The position numbers and the translations under genes were made by a program. Positions 34,170 through 36,845 of a DNA stretch of 64,000 nucleotides are shown one piece after another; the stretch's first letter is position 1, and each line of letters starts with the position of its first letter. The DNA is from an uncultured Bacteroidota bacterium (GTDB taxonomy: Bacteria > Bacteroidota > Bacteroidia > B-17B0 > Aurantibacillaceae): positions 62,001 to 126,000 of the forward strand of contig CALMVZ010000025.1 of NCBI GenBank assembly GCA_937873155.1, read 5' to 3'. The notes under the pieces are model-generated. The model was not told the DNA's origin. It saw nothing but the letters and a program-made list of their open reading frames with translations, and searched no databases.

Positions 34170-35543
34170 TTGAAACGATACTGTAATATTTTTTTAAGTC
34201 TTATACTGATAGCCTGTGCCGGTAAAGAAACAAACGAAACTGAAATTCCGGAGACTGTCACATGGAGCGAGCACATTGCCCCTATCGTTTTTAAAAATTG
34301 CACCCCTTGTCATCGTCCCGGTGAATCAGGGCCTTTTAGTTTATTGAGTTATGATGATGCGGTTAAGAACGCGAACAAGATAAAATTCGTAACACAAACA
34401 AAATTCATGCCGCCTTGGCCGGCGGACCAGGGTTACGTTCATTTTGCAGATGAGCGCGGATTAAGTGATACTGCAATTACTTTGATAAAAAAATGGGTGG
34501 AAGATAAAATGCCAAGAGGTGATGCATCAAAGGAGCCGGCCGCTCCAACTTTTTATCCCGGATCTTTTTTCGGTAAACCTGATATGGTCATCAAATTGCA
34601 AAAGCCGGTTCAGATAAAAGGAAATGGTACAGATGCTTTTTTAATGTTGAAGTTCCCATTCGAAATTCCCGAAGAAAAATATGTTCAGTACATAGAGTTT
34701 GTTCCCGGCCAGCGGAAATTAGTTCACCATGTGAACGGACATTTATTAAGTTATGATGAAACAAGGAAGTTTGACTATTGGAGAGGGGAAAGTAGTTTAA
34801 GTGATGCTTTGAATAATTTCACAAACGCTTATGCGCAAATGGGATTAACTTATACAGATGGAAAGAAACCTGAACTACCATCACTGTTGCCAAATGTCGT
34901 TTATTATTTGCCGGGCTATCAGCCTCCGGTATACAATGAAGATATTGGCGGATTTAAATTGCCAAAAAAAGGTGTTTTCTTTTTAAAGAATATTCATTAC
35001 GGTCCGGGCAAAGAAGATTGTCTCGACAGCAGTTATATAAATGTATTCTTCAGGAAAACATCGCCAAAGCGCCCTGTTTATGAAACTCAAATGGGAACAT
35101 TCGGCATTTCAAAGATCGAACCTGAATTAATTATTCCGCCAAACGAAATAGAAACTTTCCATACACAGGTCACAATTCAAAATGATATATCAATTTTATC
35201 AGTTAATCCGCATATGCACTTGATCGGAAAAAGTTTTGTGGCTTATGCATTGCCTCCTGGCGGGGATACAATTAAATTAGTGAGAATAAATAAATGGGAT
35301 TTCCGCTGGCAATATTATTATACCTATAAAAATCCGGTAAAACTTTCTAAAGGAACCACGATCCATGTGTACGGAACTTATGATAACACCGATAAAAATC
35401 CATTGAATCCTTTTCATCCGCCACAACAAATTATCCAGGGAGAAGGGAACGAAAGCATGCAAACCACAGAGGAAATGTTCCAGTTCATCTTTACTTACAT
35501 GCCGTATAAAGCAGGTGATGAGAAAATAAGCTTAAAAAAATAG
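34170..35543 (+). CDS. Lipoprotein with cytochrome-c motif and type II copper monooxygenase-like domain
   Basis: A 457-residue exported protein. The lipobox is ILIAC (Cys16), followed by a haem c motif CTPCH (residues 44-48) with the surrounding APIVFKNCTPCHRPGESGPF and a possible axial Met in KFMPPWPAD. The second half has LVHHVNGHLL and VNPHMHLIGKSF, histidine-rich motifs like those of copper type II, ascorbate-dependent monooxygenase C-terminal domains. Such proteins are common in Bacteroidota and Planctomycetes; substrate unknown. The start is TTG. It is followed by a long spacer with the hairpin array. Confidence 0.78.
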   Translation: MKRYCNIFLSLILIACAGKETNETEIPETVTWSEHIAPIVFKNCTPCHRPGESGPFSLLSYDDAVKNANKIKFVTQTKFMPPWPADQGYVHFADERGLSDTAITLIKKWVEDKMPRGDASKEPAAPTFYPGSFFGKPDMVIKLQKPVQIKGNGTDAFLMLKFPFEIPEEKYVQYIEFVPGQRKLVHHVNGHLLSYDETRKFDYWRGESSLSDALNNFTNAYAQMGLTYTDGKKPELPSLLPNVVYYLPGYQPPVYNEDIGGFKLPKKGVFFLKNIHYGPGKEDCLDSSYINVFFRKTSPKRPVYETQMGTFGISKIEPELIIPPNEIETFHTQVTIQNDISILSVNPHMHLIGKSFVAYALPPGGDTIKLVRINKWDFRWQYYYTYKNPVKLSKGTTIHVYGTYDNTDKNPLNPFHPPQQIIQGEGNESMQTTEEMFQFIFTYMPYKAGDEKISLKK

Positions 35544-35550
35544 GTGGATG

Positions 35551-35586
35551 AAAAAAAATTCCCGGCTGTATCTCACACCCGGGAAT
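35551..35586 (-). terminator. Intrinsic terminator for minus-strand transcripts
   Basis: ATTCCCGG (35558-35565) pairs with CCGGGAAT (35579-35586). On the minus strand the stem is followed by a run of T residues (35558-35551). It is oriented to stop transcription coming from trmD through the hairpin array. Confidence 0.7.
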
Positions 35587-35612
35587 AGTATTCTTATTTA
35601 CTTTTTCGCAGC

Positions 35613-35991
35613 GAGCCTTACGGGGCTCTAAACCGCTTTTTCCGGTGGATCTTACGGGATCCTAAACCGTTTTGTTTCTTCCGGCAAGCCTTACGGGGCT
35701 TTAGACCGATTTGTTGATGAGACCTTACGGGGTCAGCATCGGCATTTGTTTTTGGTTCCTATCACAGCGAGCCTTACGGGACTCTAAACTGCTTATTTTT
35801 TTCCCACAGCGGACCTTACGGGATCCTAAACTGGTTCTTTGTTTTACGAAGCTGTTGAGAGCCTCTTTTATCAATTTCTGTTGCTTGGTCCTTGAGTTTA
35901 AAACTTTTTACCAGGCTTTATGAAAGAACTTTTTTCGGCGGATCTTACGGGATCCTAAACAGGGCATTTCGCAGCGGATCTTACAGGATCC
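35613..35991 (-). repeat. Array of eight covarying hairpins downstream of trmD
   Basis: Eight short inverted repeats share the loop TTACGG (one TTACAG) on the plus strand: 35613-35628, 35647-35662, 35686-35701, 35716-35740, 35769-35784, 35811-35826, 35940-35955 and 35976-35991. The 5-bp stems differ between copies but stay paired: GAGCC/GGCTC, GGATC/GATCC, AAGCC/GGCTT, GACC/GGTC. In the two copies that look mismatched (C-A) on the plus strand, the minus-strand RNA has a G-U wobble. Read on the minus strand: a 3-4 bp outer stem, UUUA, the 5-bp stem, loop CCGUAA, one unpaired base, and the matching outer arm. Transcribed as part of the trmD 3' region if read-through occurs. Confidence 0.8.
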
Positions 35992-36123
35992 TAAACTGTT
36001 TCTTGCTGTTTCTAAAGTAAAATTATATTAATGATACGGCTTTAATCGATCATTTTGTTTAGACAGGGGATTGCGTGGGTAAAAGGAGGATTTTACCAGG
36101 CGGGGCAAAATTTTAGCTGTTTT

Positions 36124-36139
36124 AAAATGGCGCCATTTT
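36124..36139. other. Perfect 16-bp palindrome between the hairpin array and trmD
   Basis: AAAATGGCGCCATTTT reads identically on both strands and is followed by further T residues on the plus strand. It could be a weak terminator for plus-strand read-through or a protein-binding palindrome. No other gene lies between the array and trmD. Confidence 0.4.
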
Positions 36140-36170
36140 TTTAAAAATGAATCATCTTTGATGGATTGTT

Positions 36171-36845
36171 CTATTTCAACAGATCCGGTCTTCTTTTTTT
36201 AGTACGCTCTACAGATTGCTCGTACCTCCACTTCTCAATATTTTCGCCGTGGCCGCTTAAAAGAATTTCAGGAATGCCCCAGCCATTATATTCTGCAGGA
36301 CGGGTATAAACAGGAGGCGCTAATAAATTATCCTGGAAAGAATCGGTTAAGGCAGAGGTCTCATCATTCAATACACCCGGAATTAATCTTATTATTGCAT
36401 CACACATCGCAGCCGCAGCAATCTCTCCGCCCGATAGAACATAATCTCCGATTGAAATTTCTTTGGTTATAAAATGATCGCGCAAACGCTGATCAACACC
36501 TTTATAATGTCCGCACAGAACCATTAAATTTTTCTTTAAAGAAAGTTGATTGCAAATTTTTTGATTTAACGTTTCTCCATCAGGAGTCATGTAAATAATT
36601 TCGTCGTATGTTCTTTTGTTTTTTAATTCGTTGATGCAATTCGCGATTGGTTCTATCATCATAACCATTCCTGCCCCTCCGCCAAAAGCATAATCGTCTA
36701 CTTGCTTATGTTTGCCAATGCCATAACTGCGCAGATCAATCAAATTAACTTCCACCAAACCCTTTTCACTGGCACGCTTTAATATAGAGTGCTCGAAAGG
36801 ACTTTTAATTAACTCAGGCAAAACGGTTATTATGTCTATTCGCAT
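36171..36845 (-). CDS. trmD: tRNA (guanine-N1)-methyltransferase
   Basis: A 224-residue SPOUT-fold enzyme that methylates G37 of tRNAs. It has the N-terminal [13 protein letters not shown], the knot motifs MTPDGE and [12 protein letters not shown], the SAM-pocket motif [18 protein letters not shown], and the C-terminal [14 protein letters not shown]. Length is normal. The ATG at 36845 is the first codon that gives the family's usual N-terminus. It stands alone rather than in the common rpsP-rimM-trmD-rplS operon. Confidence 0.95.

Follow-up and report, generated by a model that had tools for sequence, protein, structure and literature searches.

Bacteroidota are widespread, and we know of few RNA regulators described in them. 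Several described systems can be compared with the small repeated hairpins considered here. In the Csr system, hairpin loops expose a GGA motif, and the protein CsrA is titrated by mimic RNAs, among which CsrB has 18 sites and CsrC has 11; CsrB/CsrC, like RsmX/Y/Z, carry many small hairpins with a constant loop on each RNA, single ones being found in mRNA (PMC7366521). The operator of Escherichia coli thrS, which is a precedent for tRNA-like operators, places an anticodon-like loop in front of the start codon of a gene whose product acts on tRNA (PMC6542539). REP elements, which are moved by Y1 transposases (RAYT), are short intergenic hairpins that occur in groups. Finally, the FopS sRNAs of Bacteroides thetaiotaomicron are multicopy Bacteroidota sRNAs linked with an RNA-binding protein, RbpB; each combines a single-stranded 5' stretch carrying the seed with one terminator hairpin, and they have been deposited in Rfam (PMC11697453).

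Judged from their sequence, eight hairpins encoded downstream of trmD in an uncultured Bacteroidota bacterium belong to a wider family of bacterial RNA hairpins that combine a constant loop with freely changing stems. They recall CsrB/CsrC and RsmX/Y/Z in that many small hairpins with one loop are grouped in arrays and single ones occur in mRNA leaders. By sequence, an intrinsic terminator is predicted on the same strand within 230 nt of 17 of 31 arrays. Unlike in CsrB or RsmZ, the array loops are CYGUAA (172 CCGTAA and 13 CTGTAA among 185) and not GGA. They also recall the thrS operator, as a hairpin whose loop resembles an anticodon loop by inspection precedes the start codon of queA in 28 of 87 leaders; here, the gene encodes a modification enzyme and the loop is a hexaloop. 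To our knowledge, the arrays have no counterpart in the thrS system. Like REP elements, they are groups of short intergenic hairpins; unlike them, they have few copies per genome outside the arrays and show no association with Y1 transposases at the four loci inspected. The arrays and leaders scanned gave no Rfam match at the gathering score of the kind that FopS sRNAs would give.

The array downstream of trmD

The window, i.e., the whole stretch of 64,000 nucleotides that was analysed, encodes on its minus strand (35608-36001) eight hairpins, each made of a 4-5-bp inner stem and a CCGUAA loop (CUGUAA in one of them). The array is flanked by trmD (Table 1), whose product shares up to 78% identity with relatives in named Bacteroidetes genomes, and, on the other side, by a lipoprotein-like gene of the plus strand (34170-35543) that ends towards it and whose product has a Pfam Cu2_monoox_C match.

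Table 1. Features of the array and of its surroundings, in window coordinates; E values of the hairpins are those of covariance model R1 in the own genome.
Feature	Coordinates	Strand	Evidence
trmD, same-strand gene 5' of the array, 169 nt away	36171..36842	-	ORF; Pfam tRNA_m1G_MT E 1.5e-57
Hairpin copy 8, 5'-most in the RNA, loop CUGUAA	35971..36001	-	R1 E 3.1e-9; fold
Hairpin copy 7, inner stem only, loop CCGUAA	35935..35965	-	R1 E 3.8e-8; fold without outer stem
Hairpin copy 6, loop CCGUAA, one inner-stem G-U	35806..35836	-	R1 E 9.2e-10; pair table
Hairpin copy 5, loop CCGUAA, one inner-stem G-U	35764..35794	-	R1 E 1.9e-9; pair table
Hairpin copy 4, divergent, 4-bp inner stem, shifted 4-bp outer stem	35714..35745	-	R1 E 1.6e-4; fold
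Hairpin copy 3, loop CCGUAA	35681..35711	-	R1 E 8.5e-9
Hairpin copy 2, loop CCGUAA	35642..35672	-	R1 E 1.4e-9
Hairpin copy 1, 3'-most in the RNA, loop CCGUAA	35608..35638	-	R1 E 1.1e-9
Intrinsic terminator 3' of the array	35551..35586	-	Inverted repeat; terminator scan -17.0 kcal/mol, 66 nt past last loop

The initial annotation had described eight inverted repeats sharing a hexaloop on 5-bp stems that keep pairing through compensatory changes. All eight were located. A pattern search allowing up to three mismatches returned eight matches in the window, seven of them within the array and one outside it, versus 0.93 expected from shuffled sequences. The common hexaloop is CCGUAA in seven copies, copy 8 being the exception, and the inner stem is one pair shorter than described in copy 4. 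The compensatory changes were borne out by a covariation score of 0.489 for the eight copies versus 0.318 +/- 0.048 for shuffled alignments (1 of 500 equal or higher). The structure leaves 87.5% of the cells paired, and both sides have changed in 6 of the 10 pairs. An outer stem of 3-4 bp around a UUUA internal loop had also been proposed for most copies. Such a stem does form in seven of the eight minus-strand folds (not in copy 7), but 4-5 bp (CNGU/GCNG) and a bulge of three nucleotides, UUA, describe it better.

Regarding the strand, the two copies that had been noticed to be mismatched on the plus strand and G-U paired on the minus strand are copies 5 and 6; the plus-strand mismatches are C-A. 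RNAalifold predicts both stems on the minus strand but only the inner stem, with two C-A breaks, on the plus strand (whose alignment has slightly wider flanks). The 481-nt array region folds better than its shuffles on both strands (z -3.9 for minus and -3.1 for plus), so the fold by itself cannot pick the strand. The minus-strand terminator that had been predicted 3' of the array was found again, with arms at 35558-35569 and 35575-35586 followed by a T-run on that strand. Between trmD and the array (36079-36140), the window also carries two palindromes, GGTAAAA-n-TTTTACC and AAAATGGCGCCATTTT, which might be regulatory sites.

Occurrence and covariation of the hairpin family

R1 was built from the eight window copies, so their recovery in the own genome (E 9e-10 to 2e-4) is expected; the next matches have E values of 0.025 or weaker. 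These weak matches include a second array of four hairpins that have the same loop on different stems (contig G000:C13, loci L045 and L312). Another weak match is a lone hairpin flanked by two small genes (L043). The leader of queA, identified by Pfam Queuosine_synth, carries the hairpin too (L052). Single sites are few in this genome, so that a large mRNA regulon is not evident. A pattern search allowing one mismatch in this genome was set aside, as it found mainly chance matches (72 forward and 72 reverse versus 90 and 76 for the control). The same genome carries four Y1 transposase (RAYT-like) genes on contigs C2, C10 and C12 (G000; L001-L004), and a perfect 13-bp inverted repeat lies close to one of them (L002).

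Among seven genomes of the same genus, R1 at E<=1 did not retrieve the window array and gave one match (G003, L056), which appears by eye to be coding. Two longer exact patterns searched in the genus were rejected: CCTTACGGGG, present in 7 of 8 genomes, is too short to be informative, as G005 has 12 matches and its loci show no stem of more than 4 pairs. Among the hexaloops of 80 named trmD loci and the window, CCGTAA is not generally enriched: five such hairpins with at least 5 pairs occur in 2 of the 81 sources, and the family is therefore unevenly spread in Bacteroidota.

The covariance-model search for similar arrays that the initial annotation had suggested was rewarded in other families of Bacteroidia as well as in the own genome. 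The exact core AATCCCGTAAGATT is present in 26 of 149 Bacteroidia genomes, at 27 places (2 for the reversed control). Seventeen of these 27 loci lie upstream of a gene encoding a 349-aa QueA-like protein, the relatives being named by likeness to the Pfam-tested protein of the own genome. R2, a wider covariance model made from 34 hairpins of several loci, gave at E<=0.5 at least three matches in 37 of 395 genomes of the class, from ten labelled families. With the same threshold, any match was obtained in 185 of the 395 genomes and, in a scan that took 48 of the 80 named loci, in 26 of the 48 named genomes. Single matches at this threshold are weakly informative because up to 0.5 chance matches are expected per genome; reliance was thus placed on genomes with several matches and on inspection. 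The best R2 matches in named cultured genomes are single ones: that of Marinirhabdus gelatinilytica (E 0.0019) falls within an ORF, and that of Fulvivirgaceae JP3-4 has E 0.0038. In a sample of the phylum, 12 of 296 genomes have a match at E<=0.005; six of these lie outside the class, all six with a single match, which is little more than the approximately 1.5 that chance would give. Two cores searched in phage contigs matched 3 stretches and at least 120 stretches, and the 83 of these 123 loci that were scanned (L332-L414) contain no group of two or more hairpins.

Arrays, defined by a script as at least three hairpins with 3 of 5 positions paired, were surveyed in 64 sources (60 fetched stretches, the window, L195, L045 and L061). 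These stretches, from ten labelled families of Bacteroidia, contain 31 arrays and 182 hairpins once duplicates are removed. The array spans include 185 C[CT]GTAA loops, 181 of which are closed by C-G, and no loop facing the opposite way; in 25 of the 31 arrays, A makes up 40% or more of the linkers as read on the CCGUAA strand. In a recount of clustered loops that imposed no pairing condition, at least 4 of 5 Watson-Crick pairs flank 153 of 208 clustered loops versus 41 of 1938 control hexamers and 79 of 1920 isolated loops, some of which may be genuine single hairpins. Furthermore, in an unguided calculation of APC-corrected mutual information on 170 unique copies, the five top column pairs are stem pairs 5, 4, 2, 6 and 3. 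Their values range from 0.55 to 0.93, versus 0.118 for the next column pair and a maximum of 0.074 in 20 shuffled alignments; the copies are related, hence no probability is attached to this covariation.

The stems are also asymmetric between strands. At pairs 2-3, G-U on the CCGUAA strand outnumbers A-C by 23 to 3 (27 to 9 over pairs 1-5), the counts being 4 versus 6 at pair 4 and 7 versus 8 at pair 6. The same-strand terminators mentioned above compare with 3 of 31 arrays for the other strand beyond the other end, and 14 of 31 arrays have no same-strand terminator according to the finder used. Inside the arrays, terminator-like hairpins are found on the opposite strand in 18 of 31 cases, because the A-rich linkers read T-rich there; on the CCGUAA strand, none of the 31 arrays has one ahead of its last hairpin. 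This result leaves room for a possible terminator role for genes of the opposite strand. Selection on RNA structure, which had been proposed for the minus strand of the window, is well supported for the CCGUAA strand by the wobble asymmetry, the single orientation, the A-rich linkers, the same-strand terminators and the covariation in both arrays and queA leaders.

Some arrays display additional features. In those linked to panB (L297 2760-3060, L298 and L061), CCGTAA hairpins appear by eye to alternate with a second type of hairpin with a CAACCC loop; seven CAACCC hairpins with at least 4 pairs were counted in all array spans. Two arrays (L281 2892-3102 and L274 3323-3663) seem from their spacing to have grown by tandem duplication of units of 63 and about 137 nt. 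An upstream inverted repeat similar to CTTACA..TGTAAG, seen by eye at some three-hairpin units, was dropped, as a regular test found TTAC-n-GTAA upstream of just 4 of 31 arrays.

Apart from part of a cobalamin riboswitch (RF00174) at L301 1-170, away from the hairpins, no Rfam family matched the window array, 16 array loci and 4 queA leaders at the gathering score. Overlaps below this threshold (AgrB, E 0.22, L190; STnc430, E 1.8, L195; Six3os1_3, E 4.4, window) were taken as chance. No description of a CYGUAA hairpin family was found in the literature covered, mostly outside subscription journals, on queA leaders, CCGUAA hairpins, sponge RNAs, and the hairpin repeats and small RNAs of Bacteroidetes, including those linked with RbpB.

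Hairpins in queA leaders

A survey of queA was chosen independently of the hairpin. The gene was found in 98 of 99 genomes of the class sample, and 90 leaders were fetched, 87 of which were usable. A C[CT]GTAA hairpin is present in 28 of these 87 leaders and missing from 59, the reversed control loop being found in none. Eleven of the hairpin-bearing genomes were already known from the search for the core AATCCCGTAAGATT. The stems are diverse (AAATC/GATTT, GGCAAC/GTTGCC, TAAAAC/GTTTTA, ATTAAG/CTTAAT, AATTA/TAATT and CATATC/GATATG), which indicates that the closing pair changes too. When all hexaloop hairpins with at least 5 pairs were collected from the last 120 nt of 88 leaders, 36 were obtained, of which 15 have CCGTAA and 5 CTGTAA, every other listed hexaloop occurring once. 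By contrast with queA, none of 30 leaders of tgt (identified by PF01702) carries the hairpin.

In 17 of the 28 leaders, the distance from the beginning of the loop to the start codon is 9-22 nt, and in the other 11 it is 66-159 nt. In Flavobacterium johnsoniae, mRNAs tend to be unpaired from -20 to +20 (PMC6847099), so a bound hairpin near the start codon could hinder initiation. In long leaders (L187, L189, L240, L245 and others), a UCUUAC further downstream offers the 3' side of the hairpin another pairing partner, which might constitute a switch; the alternative pairing GUAAGA/UCUUAC reaches 6 bp in 12 of 24 long leaders versus 4.2 expected, the sequences being related and the shuffles simple. 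A tiny reading frame (e.g., ATG AAA TAA) often follows the hairpin in such leaders.

By a strict criterion, the queA hairpin is found in 4 of 9 sampled genomes with at least three R2 matches and in 24 of 78 others. Arrays and queA hairpin follow the same rule for loop and stem but thus do not clearly co-occur, which makes a single protein for both a hypothesis.

Possible roles of the arrays

The reading that we tentatively prefer, while granting it somewhat less than an even chance, is that the array templates a minus-strand non-coding RNA whose hairpins are candidate protein-binding sites, acting as a sponge against single sites such as the one in the queA leader. The process would run as follows: the array RNA, made either separately or as the 3' part of the trmD mRNA, would end at the terminator listed in Table 1 and would display eight copies of one putative protein-binding hairpin on A-rich linkers. 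The constancy of the loop on freely changing stems suggests a partner that reads the loop. The recognised unit would be a free stem, closed by C-G and carrying the loop CYGUAA; the stems would just present this loop and could hence vary with compensation. The many sites of the array would draw the RNA-binding protein away from single mRNA sites, the queA leader being the conserved one among them. Bound to the queA-leader hairpin, which is often close to the start codon, the protein would block or tune translation.

A bolder version, which we consider unlikely, has CYGUAA read by some protein, possibly QueA or another that binds anticodon arms. The whole would be a Csr-like system devoid of CsrA, in which the queA leader mimics an anticodon, the arrays titrate as sponges and queuosine modification is coupled to a global regulator.

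CsrA (PF02599) was detected in none of 30 genomes with several hairpin matches and in 3 of 14 named control genomes, which indicates that it is not the loop reader. Since its loop is constant across many families of one class, the CYGUAA hairpin can be used directly as bait in a search for a new RNA-binding protein, and its position upstream of queA suggests a testable way in which queuosine modification could be regulated in Bacteroidota.

Alternatively, the hairpins might be 3'-end elements acting only in cis, which would stabilise or terminate neighbouring transcripts of one strand or the other, possibly aided by a bound protein, and would not titrate anything in trans. This is rather unlikely, although it was given more weight, at the expense of the sponge, on account of the opposite-strand terminator-like hairpins inside 18 arrays and of the gene ends near arrays. 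Of 28 arrays tested, 12 are preceded by a gene on the same strand that ends no more than 250 nt away (absent in 16), an opposite-strand gene ends within the same distance of the 3' side in 12, and both are found in 4; some single copies also directly follow genes. However, neither gene end is near in 8 of the 28 arrays. At G131 (L195), both flanking genes are antisense to the array RNA and a terminator follows the array, and at G300 (L274), atpG (Pfam ATP-synt) appears by eye to be followed by a terminator-like hairpin and then by the array. Moreover, arrays with as many as 12 to 15 sites exceed what a terminator needs, termination does not require a constant loop, the G-U bias favours the CCGUAA strand, and the queA leaders would be left unexplained.

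It is less likely still that the loop is simply an anticodon mimic (C-Y-G-U-A-A versus C-U-G-U-N-A-A of queuosine tRNAs) for QueA or TGT, with queA being autoregulated and the arrays being decoys or substrates. The anticodon loop of tRNA-Tyr is CUGUAAA, that of tRNA-Asn in the fetched loci (3 genes) is CUGUUAA, arrays and queA leaders share the same loop, and the thrS operator provides a precedent. Nevertheless, the loop is a hexaloop and not a heptaloop, the tRNA-His loops of the fetched loci (UUGUGGU) are less alike, and the tgt leaders lack the hairpin. In addition, the minimum substrate of TGT is a hairpin with UGU in its loop (PMC10103133), while 172 of 185 array loops carry CGU, so that TGT is a poor candidate for the reader.

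Mobility of the hairpins, which had been raised by the initial annotation and would amount here to REP-like elements moved by a Y1 transposase, is disfavoured and seems very unlikely. The small hairpins arrayed in intergenic DNA, the four Y1_Tnp genes of the genome and the longer repeated units of some arrays (L281 and L274) would fit it. Against this, the four Y1 loci (about 3.3 kb each) contain no C-G-closed CYGTAA hairpin, including by an inverted-repeat search, the strong R1 matches of the own genome all belong to one array, stem differences are compensated changes, and the hairpin recurs in queA leaders across many families. Selection on single-stranded DNA or on a DNA-binding site, for which inverted repeats can also serve, is the least probable reading, given the 23 to 3 excess of G-U over A-C at pairs 2-3 and the terminators and A-rich linkers found on one strand.

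Several smaller groups of hairpins were also noticed. In one labelled family, f61, a unit of three hairpins with a T-rich stretch after the third is conserved in 6 sequences from 5 genomes despite diverged flanks, and in one sequence the stem of the third hairpin shows a compensated change. A DUF6580-like gene ends towards the hairpins beside four of these units (L277, L283, L292, L301 and L302; Pfam for L302). They resemble either compact sRNA genes or terminators working in both directions. Single CCGTAA hairpins lie directly after Hsp20-like genes in two genomes (L314 3036 and L315 4195; Pfam HSP20 for L314). Lastly, in five genomes from two families (L284, L286, L293, L304 and L305; Pfam for L286), hairpins precede ribBA-like genes and point in the opposite direction to them.
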